Shown here piece by piece: positions 952-35,529 of a stretch of DNA of 44,084 nt (position 1 is its first letter; every line of letters begins with the position of its first letter). Where the stretch lies: positions 1-44,084 of the forward strand of contig JANQPV010000063.1 in assembly GCA_028285305.1 (NCBI GenBank), given 5' to 3'. Origin of the DNA: Alphaproteobacteria bacterium. Lineage in GTDB: Bacteria; Pseudomonadota; Alphaproteobacteria; SMXP01. The position numbers and the translations under genes are program-made. The notes beneath the pieces were generated by a model. That model searched no databases. It had not been told where the DNA came from and saw only the letters and a list, made by a program, of their open reading frames with translations.

Positions 952-1685
952 CATCGCGATGCCCTCGGGTTGATGTGCCCTAGGGTGGCTATACACTAGC
1001 ACGATGTGAGTGTGACTCGAACGGAGGGTATGCAATCACCGCAGTGGCAAGTAAGCCACTTGCGCAATCGACTGAGGCTGGTGCTCGGTTCGGGGCAGAA
1101 GTGGACACACCCAACTCTTTGTGCGACCGAAGAAGTGGATGACTCATTGTGCGACCATTGGCGGCCCTTAGCGGATATTCAAGCTGGAACCGATCACTGC
1201 AGAGCAGCATCCCAAAAGCAGTCATTCGATCAAGCTGCTTGTAACTCCGAGGGCCGCAGTAAGATGTCTCGAATTCGCCTGAGCCGTGCCGCTCACTTAC
1301 GGGTGAAAATGACCCAACCCGGAAGTCGGGCAATCTACTCAGCAGTTCTGGAATGCGCTATTTCTGTCCGTGCCAAATTGGCTTGCGCCATGCCTGTTGC
1401 TGAGAGAACAGCGGAAATGCCCGTCTGAAACTGCACCAGGTTCACAACGCAGAAGCGCAAATTTCATACGTGATGCAAAAGCCCTAATTCCTGCACCAAA
1501 TAAGGTGGCTCATGCTCACAACAAAATATTGCTGCGCAGCAGAATTGCTTCTGCCTCACCCTTAAAAACGACCGCCATCTCAAGGGTACTTTCCTGTCGT
1601 ACATTGTTGCTGGTAGTATCGTGCGATTTTGATTGAAATTTTTCAAGTATTCAGTTAAAAATTACTATTAATGAAGGTGTGTTTC
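952..1685. other. 734-bp stretch without a convincing gene
   Basis: The stretch between the divergent alpA-like gene and the first protease gene contains only open frames with poor composition and no recognisable motif; the longest is about 140 codons at 1006-1428. It includes the short motif CGGCCCTTAGCGGA (1162-1175), which recurs with one change at 5728-5741 in another gene-poor gap. The part nearest the protease is AT-rich (about 1600-1670) and probably holds its promoter, but I see no clear -35/-10 pair. Confidence 0.5.
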
Positions 1686-3653
1686 ATGAGAATTTTTCAC
1701 AAAATTCCAGTTTGCAGAAAGCACTTCGCAATATCTGCTCTTGTGCTGAGTGTTTTGAGTGCGAATGTTCTCTCAGAGGGGGCAACCGCTAGTGAATTCC
1801 TCGTTGAGCGGAAATCTGCACCCAGCGCCAGATATATAGACAGTTTTGGTAAAGCGGTTGACTACTCGCTTGAACCGTTTGTCCACGCGGTCCCGCAAGC
1901 CGAAACTCCAGAACTTGTTGCCGGGGCCTCTGGGGGCGCAAGAACTGGCGTCCTGAACTTTGCGCCTCAGTGGCACAGTAATTTCTTGCCGGTAGACATG
2001 AACCGGGTACTTTTTGGACAAATTATAACTCGAAGATGGCAGCATGACTACGCTGCGGCCTGGTCGCTGCCGTGCGATCTGCAGACAAAGACACGAAAAC
2101 TCAGCATCCAACAGGAATGGCACATCGACATCGATCCGGAGATTGCGGAGAATAAACCCCTAACAAAATGGACGGAAAGCCTCAAACAAGGAAATGCTGC
2201 AGTCATTGCCTACACACGGTCCCGCCCCGGCATTACCTCCACCTTTGAAAATATCGAGAATATCTGGAATACAAATCCAGCCTTCAACAACGGATTTCAA
2301 TTCAAACCGTACGCTCAATACGACTGGAGTGCTGTAAAACAAATACAAAAGGCTTGGGAAGTCCACATTCCCAACAACACGTCGTTGTATGCAAGAAACA
2401 TTGCGCAGATGCCTGATCCTCAATGGAAACGCCTTTTCGACAAGAATAATTTGTTTGGCAAAACGGAAATTGTGAAAGGCGTCAAAACGAATTGGAACTT
2501 CAAGTCACTTAAGAATCACTACAATAATACCTATGGAGTTGATGAGAAATTTTTTGAAGACCAGTATGACAACATTATAAGGGACTTCGGCACAAATGTA
2601 CCCATCACCTCCAGACCCTTTCTGCCGTTTGGGGACCGCCTCCTCGAACACCAATCATGCGAAAAATCATGCCCTGGTTGCGCATGTGGCGGCAGTCCCG
2701 CTCCGGCCATCCCGCCGGTCAGCTGCGTTGGGCCCGGCCTGGCTGGTGGTGGTGTCGGCGGCGGCGGTAGCGCCAAGGAAGAGACCACGGCGCAAAAGAA
2801 CTGGGGGAAGTGCAAAAAGGCGAACGATGAGCTTGCCGCGAAGGGGATCAACAAGGTCCGCAACTGCTCGCTGATTTTGGAACCTAATTCTGCACCTAAT
2901 GCCGTCGCCATTATTGACCGCAATTCCAAAGTAACGTTTTGCACCGGTACCCTGATTGATGAAGAGAACCTCCTCACCGCCGCCCATTGTCTTTGCGGCA
3001 GCGAAAAGGCGGATTCGGCGTTCTTCGGCGAGAAGGCCTGGAACACCCCGAATGCGGTTCGCACCTCGGTCGACTTGAGTTCGTGGCGAAAAAAGAAGAA
3101 TTCCGACTTCTGCACACAGTACCGGGAATGGCAAGCCGACAAGTCACGACCCTATCCAGAGGACGACATTGCCATTCTCCGGCTGGCCAAATCGATTTCG
3201 TCGGAAAACATCAGAAACTCGGTGCTGCCGGTTCCGCAGTTCTGGAACGGCGAGGCGTACGTGCGCGCCTATGTAGCTGGCTTCGGTGCCTCAGATGAAT
3301 CAGATCAAACTGGCGTCAAGAACATCGTCAACCTCAAGATTGAGAAAGATGGTTGCGTCACGGATGGAGACGGGAAGCGCCGGTGTACGGCCGGCAAATC
3401 ATTCATTGCTGTGGCACCCAAGGACAACAAGGGCGCCGACTCCTGTTTCGGCGATTCCGGTGGTCCGCTCATGGTGGTTGACGAGCACGGCATCCACTAT
3501 CTCGCTGGCCTTGTGATCAAGGGGACCAAAGAGAATGAGAAAAACAAGTGTGGCAAGGGTGGAATTTATGCCGATCTGCGTGACAAAAGCATCAGAGAGT
3601 GGATCGTGAGTTCCACGAAAAAAGAGATCGTATCCTTGGTGGAAAAAGAATGA
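1686..3653 (+). CDS. Exported trypsin-like serine protease with a large unknown N-terminal domain
   Basis: A 655-residue S1 (chymotrypsin-family) protease. A signal peptide (basic RIFHK..., then hydrophobic FAISALVLSVLSANVLS) sends it across the inner membrane. Residues about 40-320 are an aromatic- and Asn-rich domain I do not recognise. A Cys- and Gly-rich linker follows (about 324-366, with CPGCACGG and GGGVGGGG). The protease domain fills the rest, with a complete triad: His434 in TAAHC, Asp494 in DDIAI, Ser591 in GDSGGP. I prefer the ATG at 1686 because AAGGTG lies just upstream of it; an in-frame ATG at 1671 would add five residues. The stop overlaps the start of the second protease by four bases, so the two are made together. 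The substrate is unknown. Confidence 0.85.
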   Translation: MRIFHKIPVCRKHFAISALVLSVLSANVLSEGATASEFLVERKSAPSARYIDSFGKAVDYSLEPFVHAVPQAETPELVAGASGGARTGVLNFAPQWHSNFLPVDMNRVLFGQIITRRWQHDYAAAWSLPCDLQTKTRKLSIQQEWHIDIDPEIAENKPLTKWTESLKQGNAAVIAYTRSRPGITSTFENIENIWNTNPAFNNGFQFKPYAQYDWSAVKQIQKAWEVHIPNNTSLYARNIAQMPDPQWKRLFDKNNLFGKTEIVKGVKTNWNFKSLKNHYNNTYGVDEKFFEDQYDNIIRDFGTNVPITSRPFLPFGDRLLEHQSCEKSCPGCACGGSPAPAIPPVSCVGPGLAGGGVGGGGSAKEETTAQKNWGKCKKANDELAAKGINKVRNCSLILEPNSAPNAVAIIDRNSKVTFCTGTLIDEENLLTAAHCLCGSEKADSAFFGEKAWNTPNAVRTSVDLSSWRKKKNSDFCTQYREWQADKSRPYPEDDIAILRLAKSISSENIRNSVLPVPQFWNGEAYVRAYVAGFGASDESDQTGVKNIVNLKIEKDGCVTDGDGKRRCTAGKSFIAVAPKDNKGADSCFGDSGGPLMVVDEHGIHYLAGLVIKGTKENEKNKCGKGGIYADLRDKSIREWIVSSTKKEIVSLVEKE

Positions 3654-5326
3654 TCAGAACATTCGAGCTTTCCTTGTCCAGCCGATTGGCCGTGGCATTC
3701 TTCATTTTAACCGCGATTCTTTTCAGCTCCGCAGGAGCCGCTCAGGCAGACGGCAGGGCGGCCATGAACGCCCGTGGCCAGGATCGAGTTCATGGCGGCG
3801 AACGGGTCCGGGAGACGCAAGCGCCATGGGCCGTGGTCCTGCTAAAGGATGGCAAGTTTTACTGCGGTGGCTCTTTGGTGGCACCGGAGGTTTTCGACGA
3901 CGAGTTCGTCAAGTGGGTCAGGGGCAGGAAAGATCCGCGCTGGGTTATCACGGCAGCTCATTGCCTGTACGACAATGTCCCGGGCAGCCCGCCACTGACG
4001 ATGAACCGGCTCAAGGTCCGCACAGCGACGCTCGATCGAACGGGCTCCCACCTATCTGAAGACATAGAACTTAAGGCTGTCATTGAGCACCCGCACTACA
4101 ACAAGACAACGCTCGAAAATGATATTGCTCTGTTGCTGCTCGAATCCCCAAAAAAGGACAGGGAAACGTCCCTGCGCGGTTCGATTGGGCTGCCGCGTGA
4201 AAACGAACTCGGCTGGATCAATGAACCCTACCTCCAGCTCTATGCCTTGGGCTGGGGCGCCACCGAGGCCACTAAAGCAGGAAGCGAAAAACTCCTTCAA
4301 GTGCGCATTCCTAGGTTTGACGATGATCTCTGCAGGAAGAACTACAAGAAGATCGGCGCCGATGTGTTGGACGGTATGATTTGTGCCGGTTATGCGCGCG
4401 GAGAGTTCGATTCCTGTCAGGGCGATAGCGGAGGCTCGCTCGTCTTCCGTCCATATTCTGGAGGCAAGCAGATCCATCATAAACAGCTCTTGGATCAAGC
4501 GGTCCTTGCCGGCGTGGTCAGCTGGGGAGAGGGATGTGCTCTTAAGAGTTTCCCTGGGATCTATTCTTCAATTACCTATTACCAGCGCTGGCTGGAAAAA
4601 TCGGTCATTGCATGCGAACGCAAGCATAAAGAAGGTTGCACACAACGGTCCACAGGCACTGGGCGGCCTTCCAACGTGGTGGCATTGGATCCCACCCGGC
4701 GCTTTGTGCCCATGATCAGTGGTGAGGTTCAACTTTATCCGGAAGGATGCCAGCAAAACGGCGAATGCAAACTCGGACAGCCGATCAGGTTTCAGCAATC
4801 TGTCAATGTAGCCTGGGAGAGTGACGCCTGGCCTGGAAGCGGACAGCAGTCAGGAACCACGGACGGAGCATCGATCCCGGGCTGGGCCCAGCCGTTCATC
4901 GGGGAGCCGTTCGAACAATCGTATCTGAAGGCTGCAATTCTGCACGATCACTACTGTTACAAGGAAAACAATGTCCGTCCCTGGAGAGATGTGCATCGCA
5001 TGTTCTATGACGCGTTGATCGCGAGCGGCGTGAATCGCGTCAAGGCGCGCATCATGTACCTTGCGGTGAGGACATTCGGACCCCGCTGGACGTGGCCAAA
5101 CAACATCCCGTTTGAACTCTGCGGGGCCGGCTGCATAAAGCAGAGCCGAAATGTCACCGCACAGCAAGTCGATCACAAATGGATCAAGCCGCGCTACGAT
5201 CACGCGCAAGCTGACGCGACAATCAACGCGTTCAAGGCCGTCGCAGAGCAGAACTTGTCGCTGGAGGAATTCGAGAAGATTGCCGACAAGAAGCGTGCCG
5301 ATCTTGGGATAGAGAACGCGGAGTGA
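3650..5326 (+). CDS. Exported trypsin-like serine protease fused to a C-terminal DUF1353 domain
   Basis: A 558-residue protein translated from ATGA at 3650, coupled to the preceding protease gene. An in-frame upstream codon at 3599 is less likely because GGTGGAAAAAGA provides a ribosome site for 3650. Order: signal peptide (LAVAFFILTAILFSSAGAAQA); S1 protease domain (about residues 45-320) with His104 in TAAHC, Asp158 in ENDIAL and Ser260 in GDSGGS; then a C-terminal segment (about 365-485) with the hallmarks of DUF1353: TDGASIPGW, AAILHDHYCY, a FYDALIASGV helix and YLAVRTFGPRW. DUF1353 is best known from phage and prophage proteins and its activity is not established. The fusion suggests that the protease and DUF1353 domains act on the same envelope or external target; that is inference. 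Confidence 0.85.
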   Translation: MIRTFELSLSSRLAVAFFILTAILFSSAGAAQADGRAAMNARGQDRVHGGERVRETQAPWAVVLLKDGKFYCGGSLVAPEVFDDEFVKWVRGRKDPRWVITAAHCLYDNVPGSPPLTMNRLKVRTATLDRTGSHLSEDIELKAVIEHPHYNKTTLENDIALLLLESPKKDRETSLRGSIGLPRENELGWINEPYLQLYALGWGATEATKAGSEKLLQVRIPRFDDDLCRKNYKKIGADVLDGMICAGYARGEFDSCQGDSGGSLVFRPYSGGKQIHHKQLLDQAVLAGVVSWGEGCALKSFPGIYSSITYYQRWLEKSVIACERKHKEGCTQRSTGTGRPSNVVALDPTRRFVPMISGEVQLYPEGCQQNGECKLGQPIRFQQSVNVAWESDAWPGSGQQSGTTDGASIPGWAQPFIGEPFEQSYLKAAILHDHYCYKENNVRPWRDVHRMFYDALIASGVNRVKARIMYLAVRTFGPRWTWPNNIPFELCGAGCIKQSRNVTAQQVDHKWIKPRYDHAQADATINAFKAVAEQNLSLEEFEKIADKKRADLGIENAE

Positions 5327-5978
5327 AAGTTTGATTTGGCCGCACCGGAACTCTAAGTTTGAGAGTGAATGCTGGCCCGGCTGCACGTGCTTGCATCGGC
5401 TTGTGCGGCAAGTTCAGCTTAAACTACGGGCGTGCGGAGTGTCATCTATACACGGTAGAAACCAGCGCTTAGGACTCATCGTCGGAGTGGTGCTTAACTC
5501 GTGAATAGTGCACCAGCGGCCCACGGCTTTGGATGTCTTTGCAGAGGGCAAGTTCGGGTGGGAAAACTTCCGCCAATGAGCGATGGAAGCTGCTTCTCTT
5601 GTGGGGCATTTGTTGCCTTGCTGGCGAATTGGCCACACGGAGATTTATGGCACAAAGTCTCCGTTCGACTACGTCCGTTTGCAACCAATCTTCAGACATG
5701 ACGATTAAACTGCGCGGAAGGAGTGATCGGCCCATAGCGGACGTTGGATCGCCCTTCTTTTGTTGCAGTGCGGCATCCAGAAGCTGAAATTCGCAGAAGC
5801 TAGTGAGCAACGCAACGTCGAGTGACAGCGGGTGACGCTTGAAAGCGCTCCAAGGCTGCCAACTGGCACAGACACGTCACTTGGCTCGATTAACGACAAA
5901 TCACCCTGGTCGCGATTCTAGAACACAACTCTAGGGAAACCTCTCGGTATGCTACTATTCCGGAAATTGAGGTGTGGT
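5327..5978. other. 650-bp stretch without a convincing gene
   Basis: Short overlapping frames on both strands, none with a family motif, a good ribosome site or sensible composition. It contains CGGCCCATAGCGGA (5728-5741), a near copy of the motif at 1162-1175, which may point to decayed dispersed repeats. The last 100 bases precede gajA and presumably carry its promoter. No terminator for the protease operon is obvious. Confidence 0.5.
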
Positions 5979-7763
5979 ATGACAGTTATTCGGGAAATTG
6001 CGATCTCAAACTTTCGTGGAGTTCATTCTCTCAAATGGCGGCCAAACCCGGGTATCAACTGTTTGATTGGGCCCGGTGATGGAGGGAAGTCGACAGTTCT
6101 GGATGCAATTGAGTTGACGCTGGGCACAAGACAAAGCTTCGGTTTCACCGACGCTGACTTCCACAGATGTCATGTCGATGTACCGATCATCATTGACGTG
6201 ACATTGGGTGCGCTTCCCGACGAGCTTAGAAATCTTGAGGCCTATGGTCATTTTTTACGTGGCTGGGATCAGCAGACTGGGGTTATTCACAACGAGACTT
6301 CGGCAGCCTTGGAAACGGTCCTGACTGTGAGGCTGATTGTTAGAGACGACTTGGAAGCGCAATGGCTTCTGTTTTCCGAAGGACCGTCCGCCGAAGGCCG
6401 CGAACGCAATCTCCAATGGAAACACCGTCAACTTGTCGCGCCAACTCGCCTTGGCACCGTAGCGTCACATCACATGGCATTAGGTCCAAGGTCCGTTTTG
6501 GGAAAACTATCGCTAGACAAAACGCAGGCTTCAACCGCATTGGCCGCTGCGTCAAGGCAGGCCCGGCAGGCATTCGCTGAACAGGGCTGCAATGGTGTGG
6601 ACGAAGTGCTGACTACCTCTAAGCGTATTGCCAATAGTATGGGCATCCCTGTGGAGCAACTGAATGCATTGCTTGATGTAAAGGGCGTCACATTTTCTGG
6701 GGGCGCTATCGCACTTCATGACGAAGACCAGGTGCCTCTGAAGAACCTTGGCTCTGGCTCTATGCGCTTGCTTGTCGCCGGACTCCAAAAAGCTGCCGGT
6801 CAATCAAGCATTTCCATTATCGATGAGGCAGAGTTCGGACTCGAACCATACCGCATCATTAGATTGCTCGACTCTCTCGGAGCAAAATCAAACGACACCT
6901 CTCAGCAAGTCTTCATGACCACGCACTCCCCCGTTGTATTACGAGAGCTTTCGTCAGTTCAACTACATGCAGTTCGAACAACCCGAACGACGACCCCAGC
7001 GGTTATAAATAACTGAGAAATCCTCCAGCCTGAAACAAAAGCAACTTCCAACACTATCATCCCTCTTGGCGCGTCAGCAGAAGCCCAAAAGGCTCTAAGA
7101 GCCTGTGCAGAGGCCTTTCTGGCGCCCAATGTCATTGTTTGCGAGGGCAAAACCGAAATCGGTGTGATTAGGGGGTTGGACCTATGGGGGCAAAGTCAAG
7201 ACCAGAAAAGCATCTTAGCAAATGGTTGCCACTGGGCTGATGGTGGTGGGTCGTCAATGATGGAACGTGCCAAGATCTTCTCACGCATGGGTTATCGAAC
7301 CGCCTTGTTTATGGATTCTGATGTTGCATACGATGCGGCGCTATACGCGGAATTAGCAACGCACGGTGTCTACGTGATTCGTTGGCAAGAAGGGTATTCG
7401 ACAGAAGCCGCGATCTTCGCCTCCGTTCCCGCGTTACACGTTTCTGATCTTCTTTCCATCGCCTGCGACTGGCGCTCAGAGGACTCAGTCGACGGAAAAA
7501 TCCGTCACGCCAGCAACGGTCAGTACAATCTGCAGCTCTGCAGGCATAACTTTGTCGACGCAATGCGGCCTGTGCTGGGACAATGTGCGGGTGAGGGCAA
7601 ATGGTTCAAAGACATCGAGCCAGCTGAGCGGGTAATGAAAGAAGTTATTGCGCCGTCCTGGCAAGGCGCCGATCAGATATTAACGGCGCCGCTGAACTTG
7701 CTGTGTCAGTGGATCAATACTTCGCCAACAGTCCAACCCGCTAATCCGGCTGGGCACCGCTAG
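5979..7763 (+). pseudogene. gajA: Gabija GajA: OLD-family ATPase/TOPRIM nuclease interrupted by an in-frame TGA
   Basis: Together the two halves make a 594-codon class 2 OLD nuclease, close to the usual GajA length (about 580). The first half (5979-7016) is the ABC-type ATPase: FRGV opening, Walker A GPGDGGKST (residues 31-39), Walker B IIDEAEFGLEP near 280, and the TTHSPVVL segment. Codon 346 (7014-7016) is TGA. The same frame then continues without a break into EILQPETK and the TOPRIM domain, with Glu389 in CEGKTE and Asp446/Asp448 in MDSD. The only plausible restart, GTG at 7164, lies after the catalytic glutamate, so the second half is unlikely to work alone. Start: ATG 5979 after GAGGTG, better than ATG 5949. 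GajA nicks phage DNA with GajB; here it is broken, read through, or a sequencing error. Confidence 0.85.
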
Positions 7764-7769
7764 GTTCCG

Positions 7770-9194
7770 ATGGTGGACATACCCGACATTCTTCGGGCTC
7801 AGCGCGGGCATGTCGTTGCTCCTGCCGGATGTGGCAAAACTGAGTTGATTGCCAAGACAATTGCTATGGCTAAAGGCAAGCCGATGCTGGTTCTTACCCA
7901 TACTACGGCTGGTGTTGCTGCTTTGAGGCAAAGGCTGAAACGAGATGGCGTTCCCCCCTCAAACTACCGGCTTAACACGATTGCAGGTTGGGCACTGAAC
8001 CTGATCTCAATGTTCCCGGAACGCGGTGGATACCTACACAATCCCTTGGACGCCCCAAATTACTTAGCTGTGCAAAACGCGATTGGGGCACTTTGCGCAT
8101 CTGGTGACATCAATCCAGAGATTAATGCCACTTACTCACGCGCTTTGGTAGATGAGTACCAAGACTGTTCAGCTAGCCAACACTTGATCATTTCTGGCCT
8201 CGCCAACGCAATTCCGACGGTCGTATTTGGCGATCCGATGCAGGCGATCTTTGGCTTTGGTGGTGACCCTCTTCCGGACTGGGCTACTCAGGTGGTCCCC
8301 ACTTTTCCGGAACTAGGGCGACTGGAAACCCCGTGGCGCTGGAACAATGCCGGGGCGCGCGATCTTGGGTCTTGGCTTCTTGCCATTCGAGATATGCTGG
8401 CGGCCAATCAGCGTATCGACATCCGCACGCTCCCTGCACGTGTGACTTGGCATTCGCTGGGTACGGATTACGCGGCGAATTCCGCGGCGCAGATATCGCT
8501 TCAATACGAAATTGCGAAAGCCTATCCCGACGAGACAATCCTAATAATAGGGGATTCCATTCAAGCCAATTCTAGGCACAGCTTTGCCAGTCGTGCAAAG
8601 GGCGTGGGCGTCGTAGAACCGGTCGATTTCCGTGATGTTGTACAATTTGCAAATCAGATGGACGGAAAAACAGGGCACGAGCTTTTTGAAGCATGCTTAG
8701 CGTTCCTGATTGCGGTCATGACAAACGTATATGGTGACAAGCTCAAAGCGCGCGTTCAGTCGATCCTGAGTAATCGAAACCGAACGCCTCCAAATGGTCC
8801 GGAGCTAGCGGCAATTTCGTTGGTTCAAGGTGGCGGCTATGTAGAGGCCGTTGACTTCCTGAAATCGATGGCATCGGACCGGGATAGGCGCGTATATCGC
8901 CACAGCGCCTTCAACATAACAGTTGAGGCGCTGCAAACTACGGCGGCAACGCAGGGTACTGATTTACCTTCGGTCATAGCCAGTCTTCGAGAGAAACGCC
9001 GGCACGCAGGACGCAGCATCCCGCCGAAAGCAGTGGGCTCAACCCTTTTGTTAAAGGGTTTAGAAGCCGATCACGTGGTGATCCTAGATGCAGATCGACC
9101 TGGTAATACGATGTCGAAAGAGCATCTCTACGTTGCACTCACGAGAGGGGCTAAGTCGGTGAGTGTGTTCTCAAGACGTCCGATACTGCCATGA
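7770..9194 (+). CDS. gajB: Gabija GajB: UvrD/Rep-like superfamily 1 helicase
   Basis: A 474-residue helicase beginning six bases after the gajA stop. Motifs in order: Walker A APAGCGKT (residues 17-24), motif II LVDEYQDC (about 126-133), motif III FGDPMQAIFGF, motif V LKGLEADHVVILDAD, and motif VI YVALTRGAKSV near the C-terminus. It is smaller than UvrD or Rep (about 700) and matches the size of GajB (about 490), which lacks much of the accessory 2B domain. In Gabija, GajB associates with a GajA tetramer and responds to DNA termini made by GajA. Here it is intact while gajA is interrupted. The frame ends 75 bases before the convergent carbamoyltransferase gene; only a weak hairpin is visible between them. 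Confidence 0.88.
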   Translation: MVDIPDILRAQRGHVVAPAGCGKTELIAKTIAMAKGKPMLVLTHTTAGVAALRQRLKRDGVPPSNYRLNTIAGWALNLISMFPERGGYLHNPLDAPNYLAVQNAIGALCASGDINPEINATYSRALVDEYQDCSASQHLIISGLANAIPTVVFGDPMQAIFGFGGDPLPDWATQVVPTFPELGRLETPWRWNNAGARDLGSWLLAIRDMLAANQRIDIRTLPARVTWHSLGTDYAANSAAQISLQYEIAKAYPDETILIIGDSIQANSRHSFASRAKGVGVVEPVDFRDVVQFANQMDGKTGHELFEACLAFLIAVMTNVYGDKLKARVQSILSNRNRTPPNGPELAAISLVQGGGYVEAVDFLKSMASDRDRRVYRHSAFNITVEALQTTAATQGTDLPSVIASLREKRRHAGRSIPPKAVGSTLLLKGLEADHVVILDADRPGNTMSKEHLYVALTRGAKSVSVFSRRPILP

Positions 9195-9269: not shown

Positions 9270-10874
9270 TCAACAGTTGTCACGCAGGTAGTTTTGGTAC
9301 CCAACCGACGTTTTCAGCATGTATATTCGTCCGTCGATCACAAACCCGTCAAGCCGATGCTGCAACGTGTAAGCCGAGAGATCAGATAGCGCGTTAATGA
9401 AACCCTTGTTTTTGAAATTCAAGGACGTGTTACACAACACTCCGTAACCTGTTAGCGATTTGAACTCAGTCAGTAACTCGAACAACGGAAGATTGCTGAG
9501 TGCAGACACCGTTTGAATGCGCGCAGTCTGATTGACATGGGTCACCGCTGCCAGCCTACTCGTGGACGCCCGATAGGTGTAAAGCATGAATAGGCTTGGA
9601 GAACTGCATCCAAACCATTTTTCAGCATCATCTTCCAAGCAGACAGGCGCGATCGGCCGAAACTGCTCCCGCTGTTTGATGATGTTCAGTCGCTCTCTGG
9701 TACTGGCTCTAAAAGGCGCCGCCAAGATAGAACGATTACCAAGAGCGCGCGGTCCAATTTCGTATCGGCCGCTTACCCACCCCAAGATCAGGTCGTTGGC
9801 CAGCATTGTCGCTACGGTCGTAGCACTTGGCTCCCATTCGTCAAACTGGGAGGTATCGACAGTTTCGTCAGACAAAAAATGCAGTCCGGAGTATACGTCC
9901 CACTTAATTTTTGGGTCACCGGTGAAATAGAACTGCGCGTCGATGGCTGTACCAATCGCGGAACCCGAATCGTTAGCGACGGGAGGAACGAACACATCGC
10001 TGAACAATCCTGAGTCTTTCCACTTTGTGTTCCAATCGCAGTTAAGCCCACAACCCCCCACTATCAACAAGGGTATTCCCCGTTTGAGATTAGTTTCGGC
10101 GAACCGATGAAAGCGTTCGAATAGACGATCACTGAAGATGCCGGCAAAGTTCCGAAATTCTTGATCTTCCAAGCCTACATTGTAGTGACGCAGGTCTTTC
10201 AGCGCCTCACAATCTCTGGGCTTAAGGTGCTTGCAATCTTGCAACAGGAAGGACGCAATCATCTCCTCCTCGGACGAAGCTTGACTTCTTTTTGAGAACG
10301 AGGCGAGCGCCATCAGTTTTCCAGCATCTGATAATCGGGAAAACTCCGCAGTGCTTTTGTCGAATGTGGGATCTGCTAGAGCGTAGAGCATGGCGTATCG
10401 ATGGCCGGGTTCTGGCATCACATCAGCTATCTTCACGGTATTCAGTTCTGCATCGATTTCGTAGAATGCACCGATAATGCCCTCCCAAATCAGCGCATAG
10501 CACGGAGTGCCCTTCGGCAGCTCGGACATCCCAAACGCGCACAGAAGGTGCGAGCGTTCATGGGACGAAGAGAAAAAGTCGATAGTCCTTCCTAAAAAGC
10601 GTTTTTTGCTGACAATCACCTGATCGCCATCATTGCCGCGGTAGCCAGCCACTACCTCTCCTCCGCGCGGAGAGTCGCCAGGCCACCAGCCCCCTTGGCA
10701 CAGCACGTCGGGAACTGCATGAAGTTCGGCAATGGCATCGAATGTATCGGGGACAGATATCGACGAGTGTCGGTACTTTGAGCTCTTCTCGGCCTCGATG
10801 GAAAAAACCAAGCAGCCGTCTTCGACATACGCAAATGCGCCATCATGGCCCGGGTTATAGGAAAGTATTTTCAT
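9270..10874 (-). CDS. NodU/TobZ-family O-carbamoyltransferase
   Basis: A 534-residue cytoplasmic enzyme that transfers a carbamoyl group from carbamoyl phosphate, through carbamoyl-adenylate, to a hydroxyl of a sugar or other acceptor. The N-terminal Kae1-like domain shows the SHERSH metal/ATP-binding segment (His105 and His109) and VGGCGLN (about 272-278). The C-terminal carbamoyl-phosphate domain shows GRYEIGPRALGNRS (369-382) and CNTSLNFK (481-488). The start at 10874 (MKILSYNPGHDG) overlaps the upstream stop by four bases (ATGA); longer in-frame extensions lack support. As last gene of a three-gene glycan operon, it most likely carbamoylates the polysaccharide or glycoconjugate built by the two upstream proteins. 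The acceptor cannot be told from sequence. Confidence 0.88.
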   Translation of the reverse strand: MKILSYNPGHDGAFAYVEDGCLVFSIEAEKSSKYRHSSISVPDTFDAIAELHAVPDVLCQGGWWPGDSPRGGEVVAGYRGNDGDQVIVSKKRFLGRTIDFFSSSHERSHLLCAFGMSELPKGTPCYALIWEGIIGAFYEIDAELNTVKIADVMPEPGHRYAMLYALADPTFDKSTAEFSRLSDAGKLMALASFSKRSQASSEEEMIASFLLQDCKHLKPRDCEALKDLRHYNVGLEDQEFRNFAGIFSDRLFERFHRFAETNLKRGIPLLIVGGCGLNCDWNTKWKDSGLFSDVFVPPVANDSGSAIGTAIDAQFYFTGDPKIKWDVYSGLHFLSDETVDTSQFDEWEPSATTVATMLANDLILGWVSGRYEIGPRALGNRSILAAPFRASTRERLNIIKQREQFRPIAPVCLEDDAEKWFGCSSPSLFMLYTYRASTSRLAAVTHVNQTARIQTVSALSNLPLFELLTEFKSLTGYGVLCNTSLNFKNKGFINALSDLSAYTLQHRLDGFVIDGRIYMLKTSVGYQNYLRDNC

Positions 10875-13099
10875 ATTGAGGGTTCGCAAAAACTTGACCC
10901 ATCCAAATCGATAGAAGCACTGGTCTCTCGCTCGGGTGCCGAAGGGCCGAGCGCAAGCGCTCGTATCGATTGGACGTGGACCTTGGCCGGAAGTCGGCGG
11001 GGACTGAGGCGCCCCGCAAGATGAGAAGAGCGAGAGGGCCAAGCGTTAAAATGCAGCTGCATAGGCAAATGCGGAATCGGGGTTGGATCCCAAAGCACGC
11101 GTCGATGGACCAGTAGGTCATCCACTAACCATCGGATCTCGCACGGAGTCCATTCGATAGCATACCGATGCATACCCCGCGAAGCATCGAAGCCCAGCTC
11201 GATGTGGCTTGGAGAACCGCGGTAACCGTAGTCGAATTGGGCACCGTGGTCACCCGGATTGTAGAAGACATTGACAAGCAGGCGATCCGTCAAATTGCCT
11301 GCAATTTCGATGTCAATCTCCTGATGTGGTGAGTTGCGGTGAAGAAAGAACCCAGTAATCACTCCTGGCACGTCAGACGCTCGGAAAGTTGCCTCGAACC
11401 TCCCAAAAAGATAGTCGGCATGATTGGTCAGGGCACCTGCACTATATTGTCGAACGCCCAGCTCCTCTTGTCGGACATGTAATACTGCACCCTCAACGTC
11501 GTCGAACTCGACGTTCAGTGGACGGAACAAAGCCAAGTTGCCGGTGAATGTATCGGACCGTACGGACCAACGCAACGGGTCGAGACCACCAGAGCTATCG
11601 TCGACATTTACCCAATTTGCTTCACCCTGAAGAGCCTGCGGTATGGCCCGAATGCCTACCCAAGTACGGTGATTTGACTCGACTACCCACGGGGACTGGT
11701 CCCGCTTAGGAGTTATGCGCTTGTGGGCGGTGACTGGCTGCCCGTGGGCTTCAACAATTTGCCGTTGCCCCAGATCTTCCAACCTTGGGAAGGGGCTGAT
11801 TGGAGGCACACACCTTAGGTGCTCGCAGATAGTTCGCCAAGCATTGGCGTTGTTAATATCAAGCACAATGAGATCAGCGCCCTGGAGTCTTGCTATAATG
11901 CCTTTGCCGACTTGGTTAGATGCACCGCTAGGAGGCACCGTTACGATAAACTTGGCTTGGGGAAAGCTGCGTTGAAGCTCCTCGACCATTGGTTCGAGGC
12001 ACCCGACATTGACATACGCACCAAAGACCCGATCTTCACTACCCTGACGAAGTCGCTTCAACTCGTGCAATGGCAACCGCTCCAGATCGCTGCAGCATCT
12101 GTACCCGAGCATGGACAACGCCATCGCAAGGGACGTCTGGCCTGAGTTGGCTGACCCAAAAGCAAACACAGGCAGCTGCGTCGGACGAACGTTGAATAAA
12201 GCTGCGCCCTCGCTGTCAATCGCACCGATCTTAGTGAGGGTAGGAAGAATCGAGTACGAGTTGGTTGAGGAGGCATCTCTTCTTTGGCGGACAATGAGGC
12301 GTCTTGTTGCAAATACGCTCAACGTGCTGAACTGGTGGTTGATCCAAAGATCGACCGGACCACGGCAGGGTAGTAAACGAAGAAGCTTCTCTGCACCTTT
12401 TTTGGAGAGGATGTATCCTGACAAATACCACAGTCCGCGCACCGGCCTGAACACATGGCTCGATATGAAGGATTTTGGAGCGCCGTGCGCAGCTTCCATG
12501 TATGAAACATAAAGGACATCGAAGCCGTCATGGTTTCCGCCTGTGACCGAGATGTCATTCCAAGCTTGGTCAAGATGACGGGCGAAACTGGGGTGAAACC
12601 ATATATCGTCCTCAAGAATGAGAACTTGCTCTTGCGTACCCTGCGCAATTCGCCTCCAAACCTCTATGTGTGATTTTGCAACAGCAACTTCAGCGCTACT
12701 CATTCGGATCGGTGCTTCAAGTTCAAACCTTGTCGGAAGTGTCCTAGGCTGGGGCTCGACAAAAAGTTGATCTGCCAACGTGTAAAAGGGATCCACGTCT
12801 GCATCTTTGGGCAGATCCTGCGGGATGCTCCTCGCATCCACAGCGGCATGCCGCTCCGTGAGGCCAAGGAGATCATCGCCGAATCTATCCCGAATACGTC
12901 TGAGCTCCCTCTTAACGCGGGACCATCGATCTTGCTCTCGATCAAGGTTGATTACGTAGATCTTTTCAATCGTCTGACAATCTGTACGCAGGCGCGGCCC
13001 GAACGCTCTTGAAGTCTGTTTAGGAAAAATTCTGCTTAGGTCGTATCCTATGCGAAGCGCCCAGCGAAGGATGGCCAAGGGTGTGCGGGCCAGATTCAT
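10871..13099 (-). CDS. Three-domain fusion: GT25 glycosyltransferase, sulfotransferase-like P-loop domain, GH16 glycosidase/transglycosylase
   Basis: A 742-residue protein with three recognisable parts. Residues about 45-290 match glycosyltransferase family 25 (as in LPS galactosyltransferases): KIYVINLDRE, AVAKSHIEVW, and the acidic ILEDDIWF (161-168). Residues about 308-445 form a P-loop domain (VFAFGSANSGQTSLAMAL, then LGYRC), closest by eye to bacterial sulfotransferases, though the Gln at the position normally basic or Thr is odd and activity is uncertain. Residues about 475-715 are GH16, with the catalytic signature EIDIE (Glu594, Asp596, Glu598) and the HFNAWP segment. No signal peptide is seen, which is surprising for GH16. 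Start and stop overlap both neighbours by four bases. The protein may build, modify and trim one glycan. I know of no described protein with this order. Confidence 0.82.
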   Translation of the reverse strand: MNLARTPLAILRWALRIGYDLSRIFPKQTSRAFGPRLRTDCQTIEKIYVINLDREQDRWSRVKRELRRIRDRFGDDLLGLTERHAAVDARSIPQDLPKDADVDPFYTLADQLFVEPQPRTLPTRFELEAPIRMSSAEVAVAKSHIEVWRRIAQGTQEQVLILEDDIWFHPSFARHLDQAWNDISVTGGNHDGFDVLYVSYMEAAHGAPKSFISSHVFRPVRGLWYLSGYILSKKGAEKLLRLLPCRGPVDLWINHQFSTLSVFATRRLIVRQRRDASSTNSYSILPTLTKIGAIDSEGAALFNVRPTQLPVFAFGSANSGQTSLAMALSMLGYRCCSDLERLPLHELKRLRQGSEDRVFGAYVNVGCLEPMVEELQRSFPQAKFIVTVPPSGASNQVGKGIIARLQGADLIVLDINNANAWRTICEHLRCVPPISPFPRLEDLGQRQIVEAHGQPVTAHKRITPKRDQSPWVVESNHRTWVGIRAIPQALQGEANWVNVDDSSGGLDPLRWSVRSDTFTGNLALFRPLNVEFDDVEGAVLHVRQEELGVRQYSAGALTNHADYLFGRFEATFRASDVPGVITGFFLHRNSPHQEIDIEIAGNLTDRLLVNVFYNPGDHGAQFDYGYRGSPSHIELGFDASRGMHRYAIEWTPCEIRWLVDDLLVHRRVLWDPTPIPHLPMQLHFNAWPSRSSHLAGRLSPRRLPAKVHVQSIRALALGPSAPERETSASIDLDGSSFCEPSI

Positions 13100-13968
13100 T
13101 GCGCTTCCGAGGCCGTGGGTGCGCGATACGCTTGCTGATTGGATAACCGCCAGTTCCTCGTGTCGTTGCGGTAACTAAGCGGCCACTGGCTGGTGGAGGT
13201 AAGCTCCCAATCATGGGCAACAACCATCGCATCTGATGAACATCCTTCGCCAATAACTTCGAATACCGATCGCGTGAGATTTCCTGGCCCAGTCGTAGCT
13301 TGGACCTCAGGCAACCCGTTCGCTCTATCGGCTTCCAAAGATGCCGTGGCGTTGAACAAGGCTCTTTCAACGATGGGGTGGTGGCGCGACGCGATCAGAG
13401 GCGTCGTATTGAAGTAAAAAATCCATTCCGGCCGATTAACTCCGGGCTCTGTAAATATCGATGGTGCTACCATCTGGGCAGTTGCTAGGTCGTAGCAGAA
13501 CGGTTGAAGCTTTAGCCGTCCATCCGCGAAAAGATGACCAATTGACGTGCCGTGGTAGACATCATCGGCATCTATGTAGAAACCACCCTCCACGAGCACG
13601 TACGAATAACGGAAGTAGTCCGACATCATCGAAGGATGGTAGCATCGGCTGAAAGCATCCTCGTAGCGACTCCCTAAGCGGGTTCGGATGAACGTACTCG
13701 CAGACTGCTTATCAAATACCTCTATCTCAAACCCCTGTCGTTCCAGCTGTCTCCAAGAATCCATGCAAACTTTGACGTCTTCAGGTAGTTGCTGGAGATC
13801 GTCCCAAAACTGCACGATGCGCTTTGGCGTCGGGCCGGGCCACGAAGATGAAGCGCAGGGAGAGCGATCACGCCGCTGCACTAATTCGCGCACGAAGTCA
13901 GAGCGCGCTCGTTCCGCAGGATTAAGTGGATCGGCCCCAACGGCTTGGTGCGCTCCTGGTTCGTTCAT
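13096..13968 (-). CDS. GT32-type glycosyltransferase with DXD motif
   Basis: A 290-residue glycosyltransferase of the DXD-containing GT32 group (Och1/capsular-polysaccharide type), which moves a sugar from a nucleotide donor to a growing glycan. Visible signatures: PKRIVQFWDD (48-57), GFEIEVFD, the helix SDYFRYSYVLVEGGFYIDAD with the metal-binding DADD (133-136), and a later HHPIVERAL segment. The first 45 residues are low-complexity and hydrophilic, so the true start could lie a little downstream, but no better in-frame ATG with a ribosome site is seen. It is the first gene of the operon and overlaps the GT25/GH16 fusion by four bases (ATGA at 13096-13099). Confidence 0.82.
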   Translation of the reverse strand: MNEPGAHQAVGADPLNPAERARSDFVRELVQRRDRSPCASSSWPGPTPKRIVQFWDDLQQLPEDVKVCMDSWRQLERQGFEIEVFDKQSASTFIRTRLGSRYEDAFSRCYHPSMMSDYFRYSYVLVEGGFYIDADDVYHGTSIGHLFADGRLKLQPFCYDLATAQMVAPSIFTEPGVNRPEWIFYFNTTPLIASRHHPIVERALFNATASLEADRANGLPEVQATTGPGNLTRSVFEVIGEGCSSDAMVVAHDWELTSTSQWPLSYRNDTRNWRLSNQQAYRAPTASEAQ

Positions 13969-14512: not shown

Positions 14513-15700
14513 CTAGCTCATCGATCGAAACTCGTCCAGCAAATCGGCCCAGTTCTGCATCAGTTTAACCCTTGGATCCCAATATTTTGCGCGGTTGTAA
14601 GTACGCCGAATTGAATTGCGATCTTGGTGCGCTAGGGCTGCTTCTATGACGTCTGGATCAAATCCGCGCTCATTCATGATCGTGCTGGCAGTCACACGGA
14701 ACCCGTGCGCAGTCACCTCATCCTTTGTGTAACCAATACGCCGCAATGCCGAATTGAAGGCGTTCTCAGAAAGTGGGCGCCGATTTGAGCGTATGGATGG
14801 AAATACCAACTCAGCATGTTCGGATAACGGCCAGACACTGTTTAGGATTTCGATGGCCTGCCGTGACAAAGGAACTTCGTGCGGCCTACGCATCTTCATC
14901 CGTTCCGCGGGAATGCGCCATAGCCGTTCGGCCAAAACGATCTCTGATCGAGTGGCACCTCGCACTTCACCCGGTCTGACACAAGTCAGAATCTGAAACT
15001 TCATGGCTGCCGATATGGTCGGCCAGCCGTCGTATTCGTCTAATGCGCACAGCAGCCTACCAAACTCCTTTTCATCCGTCAGGGCCGGTCTGCCTTTGAC
15101 GACCGGAGCTGTCAGCGCATCTCTGATCGGCATTGTGGGGTCAGTCTCTGCACGTAGTGTGGCAACAGCCAACCGAAAAACTGATCCCATCACACCGCGG
15201 AGACGTCGTGCGGTTTCTCGGCGACCGCTGCGTTCGATTCGTTTCAGCAAATCCAATAGTTCAATCGGACTAATCTCACCAATGGGGCGTTTGGCGATGG
15301 GAGCTGCCAATTTCTCAAGCATCCACCTCGTTTTCTTGATGGTTGCTGCTGCTGACCCTTTCGCCTCCATGTTCTGGATATACTCGGCAGCCACAAGCTC
15401 AAATGTGTTGTTGGCTGCCGTTTCGGCGTTGATCCGGTCGAGCTTTCTCCTCACGGAAGGATCGATCCCATCCAGTAATAGTTTCCGCCCTTCCATCTGT
15501 TTCTCTCGGGCCTCTACGAGCGAGATTAAGGGGTAGGGCCCATAGGAAAGCAGTCGCTCCTTTTTGGCGTATCTGTACTTCCAGCGCCAAAGCTTGGAGC
15601 CATTCGGCTGGATGTGGATGTACAAGCCATTGGAATCAAACAACTTGTAGGGTTTATCAGCTGGCTTGGCTTTCCGTATTTTCAGGTCTGTGAGCGCCAT
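14513..15700 (-). CDS. P4-type tyrosine recombinase (integrase)
   Basis: A 395-residue integrase of the bacteriophage P4 group, which inserts elements into tRNA 3' ends. The N-terminal DUF4102 arm-binding domain is clear (MALTDLKIRKAKPADK, LYIHIQPNGSKLWRWKYR, LLSYGPYPLISLVEAR). The catalytic set is complete: Arg242 in CVRPGEVRG, Lys near 269, HGFR (His332, Arg335), His358 in ALAHQ and Tyr368 in RRTYNR. The gene starts 166 bases from the tRNA-Phe 3' fragment, with five copies of an arm-site motif in between. This is the standard layout for the integrase end of such elements, and it assigns the enzyme to element A (the DNA to the left), not to element B. Confidence 0.93.
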   Translation of the reverse strand: MALTDLKIRKAKPADKPYKLFDSNGLYIHIQPNGSKLWRWKYRYAKKERLLSYGPYPLISLVEAREKQMEGRKLLLDGIDPSVRRKLDRINAETAANNTFELVAAEYIQNMEAKGSAAATIKKTRWMLEKLAAPIAKRPIGEISPIELLDLLKRIERSGRRETARRLRGVMGSVFRLAVATLRAETDPTMPIRDALTAPVVKGRPALTDEKEFGRLLCALDEYDGWPTISAAMKFQILTCVRPGEVRGATRSEIVLAERLWRIPAERMKMRRPHEVPLSRQAIEILNSVWPLSEHAELVFPSIRSNRRPLSENAFNSALRRIGYTKDEVTAHGFRVTASTIMNERGFDPDVIEAALAHQDRNSIRRTYNRAKYWDPRVKLMQNWADLLDEFRSMS

Positions 15701-15866: not shown

Positions 15867-15912
15867 TGGTGCCCAGGGGCGGAATCGAACCACCGACACG
15901 CGGATTTTCAGT
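15867..15912 (-). repeat. 46-bp att core: duplicated 3' part of tRNA-Phe
   Basis: The 46 bases are identical to 35454-35499, from the CCA end through the T arm to the anticodon loop of tRNA-Phe. The identity ends sharply (T here, C in the tRNA). The 5' half of the tRNA is absent, so this is not a functional tRNA but the duplicated target of an integrase. It separates element A (left) from element B (right). Confidence 0.9.
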
Positions 15913-19015: not shown

Positions 19016-22000
19016 TCATGGTTCAGCGTGCCTCAGCATGTCATCGACCGAGGTCGCCCGGATGTAGCGTGCCGGATCATCGCCTTCGGCAATCGCAGCG
19101 AAATGCTTTTCGCCACATTTGATCTTGGCCCCCTCGATGTGACGCAAGTCGTCCCACCAGGTGCTGCCCTTGGTCTCGATGACGAAGTAGAGCTTCTCGT
19201 GACCGTCCATTTCCACGAGCACAGCCCAGTCGGGATTGTATGAACCGAGCGGGGTCGGCACTTTGAACCATGCCGGAAGTTTCGCGTAGACCTTGACGGC
19301 TTCGTTCGCCTCAAGTTCTTCTGCGAACCGCTTCTCGATGCCAGCGGAATCGTAGACAACCTGCTCGTACACTGATTTTTGGGTGCTGAGCGTGTTCTTC
19401 ATGTAGCCCATGAGCTCTTCCTGCTCGAAAAGCTCCTGTGCGTAGTAGTGGCTGTCGCCGACACGCTGGTAGCGGATGCCGTCAACAAGCGCGAGGCGCT
19501 TGGTCCGGTTGACTGCCTCAGCGGCCAACTCAATGAACTCCTGCGGGTTCTTCCTGAAATCGTTGAGACGGCGGCATTCGGTGAGGATCGTAACAAGGCT
19601 ACGGCGTGTGAGCTGCGTCTTGTCCTGCAAGTCAGTGAGCAGGTCGGGCAGCTCGATGTCGCTTTCGGAGATTGACGTATAACCGGACGTGGATGTCTCG
19701 GTCGCAAGAACGCCGCCCTTGCCAATGGCGATATCGGCGCTTCGGAACTGCGCTCGCGTCCGAGTAATCGGCGGCGCGTCAAGGATGGCTTGCGCACAGT
19801 CCTTGATGAGTTTCGGATTGTCGAAATCGACCCGGTAAGTGGTCTTGTGCTTGATGCGATCCCAGAGCGCCTGAAACTCTTCGCTTTCCAGTACAGCGCG
19901 ACGGGTACGGACGGTCACGCGCTCGTCGGCATTCTTGATCTCTAGCTTGCCAGCCAGCTTCCGAAGTAGCTCTTTGATACCTTCTTCCTGTTCGGCAAAC
20001 TCCTCAGGAAGTTCAAGCGTGTCGTCCTTCAGGGCGGTGCGCAAGCTGTCCTGCACCTTGCCGCGATTGTCGATCAGCTTGTTCTTGCGGAGAAATTCCC
20101 AGACCTGTTCCGATTTCTGCACGCCGAGTGGCTGCGTCGTCCCGTCTTCCTCGGTGACAGCGAGAGCGGCGAACTGGTGCTTCTCGACGATGCCGAAACG
20201 AATGCCGGTATCTTCCTCTATCTCCTTCTGAAGATTCTCGGCGAACTGTTCATAGCTCTCGGTCGCAATGACCGTCAGTGTATTCACGTCGAAGCCGCGT
20301 AGCCGGTGCCCCTCCTGATTGACGCAGAGCCGGAGGCCCCGGCCGATTGTCTGCCGCCGCTCAAGCTCGGAGCCCATATCCCGCAATGCGCAAATCTGGA
20401 ACACGTTCGGATTGTCCCAGCCTTCCTTCAAGGCCGAATGCGAGAATATGAACTTCAGCTTCGACTCGAAGCTCAGAAGCTTCTCCTTGTCCTTCATGAT
20501 CAGGTTATAGGCGCGCTCGGCATTGTCGCGGTTTGTGGCGTTGTCGGCGATCTCGCCGTTTGCCTTGCGCGACGGCTCCTGGAACCGGCGGTTCTTGTCG
20601 ATTGAGAAATAGCCGTTGTGGACCTCATCGGCCTCAATATGGAGGTCCACCTTCTCGAACAGTGTCTGATAGTCCGGCTGCTTTGCAAGCCTTCGGTATT
20701 CTTCTTCGAACATCAGGGCGTATTTGCCCTTCACAGGGTTCCCGTCTTCGTCATACGAACGGTAGAACTCGACGCTGTCGATGAAGAACAGGCTCAGCAC
20801 CTTGACCTCGCGCTTCTGGGCGGCGAAGCGCATCTCCTTGTCGAGATGCTCCTTTATCGTGCGACGGATCATCAGGCGTTTAAGGTCATCGGGGTTGACG
20901 CCGCCGACTTCCTCGCCCGGACGCAAGGTGTACTCGCCGCCCGGCATGCTGATTTCCATCGACTGGTTGTCAGCGCCGCATGTGATCGTCCCGATGCGGA
21001 AATTCTCGTAGATCGCCCGCCCGGTTTCTTGTTCAAGATCGTCGCCGTCCTCAACGGTCATGACCTCCCGACGGACATTGTCGCCGCGCATCAAGTCCGC
21101 CTCGATCTTGGCCGTTATTGATCCCTGCCGGTTATGTGTCGAAACCAGCTTTACATACGGCTTGTTGTGGCCCCCCTCGACCTCCAGCGACGCGACCTCG
21201 ATCTGCTTGACCAGCTCACGCTCATAGGCATCTACCGCGTCGAGCCGATAAAGCATGTGGTGTTTATCCACATGCGTTGCGGAGTAGCGCAGCGTGCAAA
21301 GCGGGTTCATGGCGTCGAGGGCTTCCTTGCCCTTGCCGGTCAAGCCCCCGTCAACACTTTGGGGTTCATCGACGATGATAATCGGGTGCGTCGCTCGAAC
21401 GAGGTCGATAGGCTTTTCGCCGCCGGTCTTTTCGCTCTCTTTATAAAGATTGTTCACGTCCTTCTTGTTGATGGCGCCGACAGTCACAACCATGATCTGG
21501 ATGTTCGGACTGGTCGCGAAGTTGCGCACCTGGCCGAGCTTGTTTGAATCGTAAAGAAAGTACTCGTTACCCTTGGCTATCGGGTAAAGGTTCTCGAAAT
21601 GATCGCGGGTGATCTGAAGGGTCTTGTAGACGCCTTCCTTGATCGCGACTGACGGCACGACGATCACAAATTTCGTAAAGCCATAACGTTTGTTCAGCTC
21701 GAAGATGGTCCGGAGATAGACGTAGGTCTTGCCCGTCCCTGTCTCCATCTCGATGGTGAAGTCGCCACTGGCGAGCGACTCCGATGGGCGCAAACCATTG
21801 CGGAACTGAATTTCACGCAGGTTCTCCTGTATCTCGTCATCCAGCAACTGGAGCCGATTTCCGATGCCGAGTTCGTTCTCAGTGATACCCAACGAACCTT
21901 GTGGCCCATCCTCGGGCCGGTAGGTAACAGTGAACTCGGTCCGGCAAATATCCTGTCCGCCGAACAGGTCCGCAACGGCCTCAACAGCGGCGATCTGGTA

Positions 22001-22030
22001 ATCGAGATTGTCTTCAAAATGCAGCTTCAC
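19016..22030 (-). CDS. Type III restriction enzyme Res subunit (helicase-nuclease)
   Basis: A 1004-residue protein of the usual Res length. It is a superfamily 2 ATPase followed by a nuclease: motif I METGTGKTYVYL (about 95-106), motif II IIVDEPQSVDGG (about 217), SATH as motif III, SHSALKEGWDNPNV, and motif VI QTIGRGLRL (about 560). Near the C-terminus the PD-(D/E)XK site is visible as YNPDWAVLV (about 930) followed by VIETKG (about 953). With Mod it cuts DNA after ATP-driven communication between two unmodified sites. It starts 14 bases after the mod stop and is the last gene of the operon. No terminator stands out downstream. Confidence 0.93.
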   Translation of the reverse strand: MKLHFEDNLDYQIAAVEAVADLFGGQDICRTEFTVTYRPEDGPQGSLGITENELGIGNRLQLLDDEIQENLREIQFRNGLRPSESLASGDFTIEMETGTGKTYVYLRTIFELNKRYGFTKFVIVVPSVAIKEGVYKTLQITRDHFENLYPIAKGNEYFLYDSNKLGQVRNFATSPNIQIMVVTVGAINKKDVNNLYKESEKTGGEKPIDLVRATHPIIIVDEPQSVDGGLTGKGKEALDAMNPLCTLRYSATHVDKHHMLYRLDAVDAYERELVKQIEVASLEVEGGHNKPYVKLVSTHNRQGSITAKIEADLMRGDNVRREVMTVEDGDDLEQETGRAIYENFRIGTITCGADNQSMEISMPGGEYTLRPGEEVGGVNPDDLKRLMIRRTIKEHLDKEMRFAAQKREVKVLSLFFIDSVEFYRSYDEDGNPVKGKYALMFEEEYRRLAKQPDYQTLFEKVDLHIEADEVHNGYFSIDKNRRFQEPSRKANGEIADNATNRDNAERAYNLIMKDKEKLLSFESKLKFIFSHSALKEGWDNPNVFQICALRDMGSELERRQTIGRGLRLCVNQEGHRLRGFDVNTLTVIATESYEQFAENLQKEIEEDTGIRFGIVEKHQFAALAVTEEDGTTQPLGVQKSEQVWEFLRKNKLIDNRGKVQDSLRTALKDDTLELPEEFAEQEEGIKELLRKLAGKLEIKNADERVTVRTRRAVLESEEFQALWDRIKHKTTYRVDFDNPKLIKDCAQAILDAPPITRTRAQFRSADIAIGKGGVLATETSTSGYTSISESDIELPDLLTDLQDKTQLTRRSLVTILTECRRLNDFRKNPQEFIELAAEAVNRTKRLALVDGIRYQRVGDSHYYAQELFEQEELMGYMKNTLSTQKSVYEQVVYDSAGIEKRFAEELEANEAVKVYAKLPAWFKVPTPLGSYNPDWAVLVEMDGHEKLYFVIETKGSTWWDDLRHIEGAKIKCGEKHFAAIAEGDDPARYIRATSVDDMLRHAEP

Positions 22031-22044
22031 GGCGCGCCCTCCCC

Positions 22045-35453: not shown

Positions 35454-35529
<76 letters not shown>

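Follow-up and report, generated by a model that had tools for sequence, protein, structure and literature searches.

The window analysed here, a stretch of 44,084 nucleotides (contig JANQPV010000063.1, assembly GCA_028285305.1) from an Alphaproteobacteria bacterium of lineage SMXP01, carries on its minus strand three genes in the order GT32, fusion, NodU-like, whose Pfam matches each exceed the family's own cut-off:

13096-13968, minus strand: GT32-type glycosyltransferase, 290 residues (PF04488, E 3.1e-7)
10871-13099, minus strand: fusion protein, 742 residues, with an N-terminal amphipathic helix, a GT25 domain, a degenerate sulfotransferase-like domain and a GH16 domain
9270-10874, minus strand: NodU/TobZ-type O-carbamoyltransferase, 534 residues (PF02543, E 3e-22; PF16861, E 6.9e-51)

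Both junctions are 4-bp ATGA overlaps (13096-13099 for GT32/fusion and 10871-10874 for fusion/NodU), bearing out the initial annotation's description of a tight operon with GT32 upstream and the carbamoyltransferase downstream; the span that it gave, 10871-13968, correctly covers the GT32 and fusion reading frames and omits the NodU gene at 9270-10874. Within the fusion the following parts can be distinguished:

13025-13090, minus strand: cationic amphipathic helix, residues 4-25, a putative membrane attachment conserved in homologues
12350-12967, minus strand: GT25 domain, residues 45-250 (PF01755, E 1.2e-13)
11810-12178, minus strand: P-loop/sulfotransferase-like alpha/beta domain, residues 308-430, with PAPS-binding residues missing
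10949-11614, minus strand: GH16 lichenase-type domain, residues 496-717 (PF00722, E 2.3e-26 at 544-692)

Pfam searches with the fusion matched GT25, Sulfotransfer_4 and GH16 in that order. The first belongs to its family at 51.9 bits against a PF01755 cut-off of 24, contains the acidic motif LEDD at residues 162-165 (codons of E163-D164-D165 at 12605-12613) and, by sequence comparison alone, matches procollagen galactosyltransferase among PDB proteins. Profile (PF00722, 92.8 bits), fold and ExDxE residues likewise place the last in GH16, with a QEIDIE motif at residues 593-598 and the catalytic EIDIE encoded at 11306-11320. Both motifs are under strong constraint, E163, D164 and D165 as well as Q593, E594, D596 and E598 being invariant in 45 aligned fusion homologues. 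With both domains matched and their catalytic motifs intact, the proposed GT25-GH16 fusion stands. Lichenases are the best solved-structure fits for the GH16 domain (3i4i: VIA-align Z 26.9, rmsd 1.6 over 204 residues), and its scores fall below the cut-offs of the secreted depolymerase classes (ExoK 49 against 350 bits, BglS 83 against 300). When the whole fusion served as query for a structure search, all matches were to GH16, so that the GT25 and middle domains lie outside the fold comparison, and the domain arrangement in the AF2 model (pLDDT 75, pTM 0.56) is unreliable at these values. The order GT25-(P-loop)-GH16 is nevertheless repeated full-length in homologues, indicating that the fusion is not a chance one; a chance or chimeric reading frame is ruled out by such full-length homologues across phyla, down to 36% identity.

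No transmembrane segment was found in the fusion, GT32 or NodU, and the fusion shows neither a signal peptide nor a hydrophobic N-terminal segment, in agreement with the earlier statement that its GH16 domain lacks an export signal. The helix at residues 4-25 has, over 40 homologues, a mean hydrophobic moment of 0.60 and a mean charge of +4.3, and in 67% of sequences its amphipathicity beats 90% of the sequence's own shuffles; the AF2 model also has a helix here, at residues 5-24, with low pLDDT.

The description of the middle domain as a sulfotransferase-like P-loop holds for its fold and fails for its active site. The P-loop-like alpha/beta core of sulfotransferases is kept, according to profile alignment and an AF2 model with pLDDT mostly about 90 in this region, and a partial Sulfotransfer_4 match (PF17784, E 6.9e-6, residues 311-388) lies above the Pfam cut-off; the W..LC..L and FP motifs are further points of likeness to PAPS-dependent sulfotransferases of that family. 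Unlike in those enzymes, the basic residue of the 5'-phosphosulfate loop (R/K-S/T-G-T) is absent, the P-loop consensus of 45 aligned homologues being SGxSSL, and the motif is lost altogether in two loci, L054 and the divergent L045. Profile alignments to solved sulfotransferases, themselves weak (E 0.01-0.03), also lack the VRDP Arg, which binds the 3'-phosphate, and about 60 residues between conserved blocks. The expected PAPS-binding residues are thus absent from the alignments, the domain falls outside the PAPS-dependent sulfotransferases, and a working sulfotransferase is ruled out by loss of the P-loop basic residue and the VRDP Arg. Of seven homologues scanned against Pfam, six have either no listed match or a score under the sulfotransferase cut-off; L045 lies above it. 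These features are consistent with derivation by decay of a full sulfotransferase, and we read the domain as a probable scaffold, a dead sulfotransferase.

In the upstream partner, D133 and D135 of a DXD-type motif are invariant among 48 homologues. Its AF2 model (pLDDT 84) finds its best PDB matches in YeGT, PaToxG and Och1 and is also close to SetA, all four being enzymes that act on proteins. The downstream partner belongs to the NodU/TobZ O-carbamoyltransferases, having Carbam_trans_N and Carbam_trans_C domains, the ATP/carbamoyl-phosphate site ExGPRALGNRSIL and matches to solved carbamoyltransferases including TobZ and GdmN. The pairing of this family with a sulfotransferase-like element recalls Nod-factor decoration genes (nodU with nodH); here, however, there is no nodABC, and NodU scores 256.4 bits against a cut-off of 1000 for the nodulation NodU equivalog (NCBIfam NF041651); Nod-factor genes are ruled out. 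Since small molecules, too, are carbamoylated by members of this family (TobZ, GdmN, novobiocin), the product might instead be small and diffusible or exported, such as a carbamoylated oligosaccharide acting as an antibiotic-like or signal molecule, but no exporter, resistance gene or regulator is conserved with the cassette and we regard this as very improbable.

Related cassettes are widely scattered. A scan of 84,980 species genomes recovered 46 loci (best-segment identity 37-72%), a lower bound as the scan needs exact short peptides, and the cassette is spread over about ten phyla. A profile search of 398 genomes of the window's own phylum found two carriers, one of them the window's genome; E. 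coli has four chromosomal copies among 5,426 genomes, and plasmid copies occur in Citrobacter, Klebsiella, Aliarcobacter, Rhizobium, Rhizorhabdus and Sphingobium. One Methylomirabilota MAG contig (L005), 99.97% identical to a Burkholderiaceae locus (L017) and likely misbinned, was excluded. Where enough upstream sequence is available, GT32 lies directly upstream of the fusion (48 of 49 loci), within 150 bp in 47 of the 49 and within 310 bp in L035; only L049, itself degraded, departs from this. Of 50 informative loci, 40 have a linked NodU gene, mostly downstream; in L054 and L055 it lies upstream and in L035 it is divergent, while the other 10 lack it. Domain order and gene linkage, which the initial annotation proposed to check, thus recur across genomes, with GT32 and the GT25-GH16 fusion as the core and NodU often present as a third gene. 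Mirror trees give r 0.91 for fusion and GT32 and r 0.75 for fusion and NodU, the latter to be compared with r of at most 0.38 in 2000 permutations.

Cassette DNA is 82-92% identical between hosts, with edges generally within about 120 bp of the genes. Cross-phylum copies, e.g. in Methylobacter, Scalindua, Chloroflexi and Omnitrophota MAGs, are 82-89% identical in DNA, and the Rheinheimera and Citrobacter plasmid copies 92%. The flanking genes are unrelated between hosts and no further family recurs at more than seven loci. Such sharp identity edges and unrelated neighbours indicate that the cassette moves as a unit, all three genes travelling together, sharply bounded, among distant bacteria. 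No dedicated mobile element was seen around it, the identity edges lying close to the genes; conjugative plasmids carry it, and the E. coli chromosomal copies lie beside T4SS genes. Several copies are broken (L019, L026, L048, L049 and L051), from which we conclude that turnover is high. On Rhizorhabdus wittichii plasmid pSWIT02 (L051, 12220-14781) NodU is interrupted by an IS4-family transposase, and in a decayed Thermoleophilia locus (L048, 8001-13157) the fusion is broken into two frames and an interruption of about 1.3 kb lies in NodU. To judge from record titles the hosts are nearly all diderm, the sole actinobacterial copy being the one split into two frames. A prophage gene is ruled out by the lack of any match in 50,697 phage records; one copy on an IMG/VR contig (L003) is of the same lineage as the Sphingomonas copy. 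Taken together, the three genes very probably form a mobile cassette for glycan modification, carried mainly by diderm bacteria.

In the window the cassette lies between an integrase and a defence system:

14513-15700, minus strand: tyrosine integrase of the cassette-bearing element (PF00589, PF22022, PF13356)
15867-15891, minus strand: att-like copy of the tRNA-Phe 3' end (exact 25-bp repeat, second copy at 35454-35478)
5949-9194, plus strand: Gabija system (PADLOC GajA, E 1.5e-143 and 2.4e-44; GajB, E 2.9e-169)

The exact 25-bp repeat (15867-15891 and 35454-35478), of which none is expected by chance and no third copy exists in the assembly, marks two elements in tandem at tRNA-Phe, parted by the copy at 15867-15891. 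The first (15.9-35.5 kb) holds a type III restriction-modification system; at 19016-27889 an EcoP15I-like Res and Mod pair forms one run with a SNF2/RapA-like helicase (1073 residues) and a 257-residue gene. The second runs from the integrase through the cassette to Gabija and on past the window start. With integrase, att-like repeat and Gabija only 75 bp from the cassette, tail to tail, the placing of the operon in an integrated element beside a defence locus is supported. The gajA gene (5949-7763) has a single in-frame stop after residue 355, and gajB is intact. Also beside Gabija, at 1671-5326, are two overlapping trypsin-like protease genes, the second fused to DUF1353, a possible defence or effector pair.

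At the other loci the sample comprised, on either side of the cassette, the closest one or two genes of larger size, giving 142 flank proteins. PADLOC matched among these Gabija, Septu PtuA, SIR2-HerA, Lamassu/ABC-3C, Qat, Wadjet JetA/B, Dpd, type IIG restriction-modification and several candidate systems, and Pfam matched GmrSD and a D12 methyltransferase. The E. coli copies occupy an island with an ABC-3C system in addition to the T4SS genes, and an Aliarcobacter plasmid copy is near a Shedu gene. By the Sphingobium cassette (L055, 1962-7204) are multiubiquitin and ThiF-like genes together with RES/Xre genes, making up a locus for ubiquitin-like conjugation and a toxin-antitoxin pair. In comparison, a control set of 72 proteins, drawn from 18 of these contigs, matches only seven PADLOC models. 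PADLOC output listed models rather than proteins, and the counts are accordingly bounds: at least 22 of 142 in the flanks (a hand-counted lower bound) against at most 4 of 72 in the controls (an upper bound, with an RtcR-type regulator left out), for a one-sided Fisher p of about 0.03, or 0.08 with 18 flank proteins accepted. By count the association with defence genes is suggestive, and it is stronger through the several recognised multi-gene systems. Up to E 0.1, no PADLOC v2 model matched GT32, the fusion or NodU; the cassette thus resembles Gabija, Lamassu and other known PADLOC systems in genomic habitat and modular mobility, but none of its three proteins matches any of their models.

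GT25-type transferases act on envelope glycans (LPS core). Our leading, tentative reading is that the cassette is a mobile defence-island module which alters a membrane-linked or envelope glycan and so blocks or masks phage receptors; we infer both the substrate and the anti-phage activity. The cationic amphipathic helix at its N-terminus would dock the fusion at the inner face of the cytoplasmic membrane, where GT32 and GT25 would add sugars from common nucleotide-sugars onto a membrane-linked acceptor, GH16 would trim or transglycosylate the resulting chain and NodU would cap it with a carbamoyl group, the degenerate sulfotransferase-like domain serving as a scaffold or acceptor-binding part. 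Receptors for phages, or for a tailocin or competitor, might in this way be blocked or masked on the altered envelope glycan. That common donors and three soluble enzymes suffice across phyla argues for a glycan writer that is self-contained. An acceptor on the inner side of the membrane, and hence a change of the envelope, is favoured by the membrane-type helix, the habits of the GT25 family, the almost exclusively diderm hosts and the precedent of WapO, a putative Pseudomonas carbamoyltransferase whose target is heptose of the LPS core (PMC8005017). Gene linkage, mirror trees, sharp-edged mobility, plasmid carriage and flanks that hold several known defence systems are further points in support, and the suggestion in the initial annotation of a surface-glycan change against phages is plausible from this genomic association. 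Against it, the cassette brings along no membrane protein, be it a flippase, polymerase, ligase or another, the carriers' envelopes differ greatly, NodU is missing at 10 of 50 loci, and the defence enrichment is a hand-made lower bound with p of about 0.03 or 0.08.

The neighbouring defence systems are, moreover, mostly intracellular, and the nearest folds of GT32 include cytosolic protein-glycosylating enzymes. Together with the lack of a membrane partner, these points favour a cytosolic target, and in a somewhat less likely model GT32 and GT25 would act inside the cytosol of the infected cell, adding sugars to a protein of phage or host or to nucleic acid, with NodU capping the chain and GH16 erasing it or editing its length. 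The absence of signal peptide and transmembrane segments, sugar donors that are likely universal, the nearness of the GT32 model to YeGT, PaToxG, Och1 and SetA and the match of GT25 to procollagen galactosyltransferase would all suit such a target. In PHROGs, the GT25 part matches a glucosyltransferase family of phages and NodU a family of phage carbamoyltransferases, leaving nucleic-acid modification as a possible activity; neither a hydroxymethylase nor a nuclease accompanies the cassette as a conserved neighbour. A cytosolic target accords poorly, however, with the conserved membrane-type helix, the near absence from monoderm hosts and an endo-acting lichenase-type GH16, which implies a polymer or oligomer that would be unusual on cytosolic proteins.

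The envelope or exopolysaccharide might also be modified without any role in defence, in biofilm formation, conjugation or habitat fitness, defence islands being places where mobile genes collect. In marine alphaproteobacterial polysaccharide regions the GH16 relatives stand as genes of their own, one of which encodes a signal peptide; they adjoin glycosyltransferase and sulfotransferase genes and in one case a flippase. Rhodobacteraceae S2214 (L078, 7665-11589), for example, has an operon-like set in which a secreted GH16 is joined by two glycosyltransferase genes and one for a sulfotransferase. These separate genes suggest an origin for the parts of the fusion, and conjugative plasmids carry the cassette beside resistance genes. 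We nevertheless think a role outside defence rather unlikely, as the three genes form a sharp unit without any other polysaccharide gene and are repeatedly adjacent to known defence systems, to Gabija twice.

Of known arrangements, the gtr serotype-conversion cassettes of temperate phages (GtrA, GtrB and a type-specific Gtr) need a flippase and a polytopic transferase. Like them the present cassette is mobile, has few genes and might modify a surface glycan and keep phages out, but it has no transmembrane segment, no further conserved gene and no family in common with them, and it is not a gtr cassette. Secreted ExoK-like GH16 endoglycanases of exopolysaccharide clusters share the GH16 fold and EIDxE motif, but are stand-alone and carry a signal peptide, whereas the present domain is fused to GT25 and has none. 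Pseudomonas LPS-core modification has in WapO a putative carbamoyltransferase of the NodU family that works on envelope glycans (PMC8005017); there the genes are fixed core-LPS genes, here they form a mobile unit with GT32 and the GT25-GH16 fusion. No description of the cassette was found in the open-access literature (PMC) or PADLOC, in line with the view that no such system has been described; by these searches it is new in make-up, and it has a function that we infer.

The chances are roughly balanced that the cassette represents an as yet undescribed immunity class composed purely of carbohydrate-active enzymes, a mobile module of two or three genes that would write, edit and carbamoyl-cap a glycan from inside the cell against phages, its transferase and endoglycanase sharing one polypeptide and the dead sulfotransferase acting as a scaffold. 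If the defence reading is true, it adds glycan writing, trimming and carbamoylation, absent in such form from the PADLOC catalogue, as a small module portable across phyla and already present on Citrobacter and Klebsiella plasmids and E. coli chromosomes. Even outside defence, the conserved joining of a transferase to an endoglycanase in a single polypeptide that has no export signal is an unusual architecture, and since the version in E. coli (L057, 18066-21077) and Klebsiella consists of only two genes, its substrate is directly testable.
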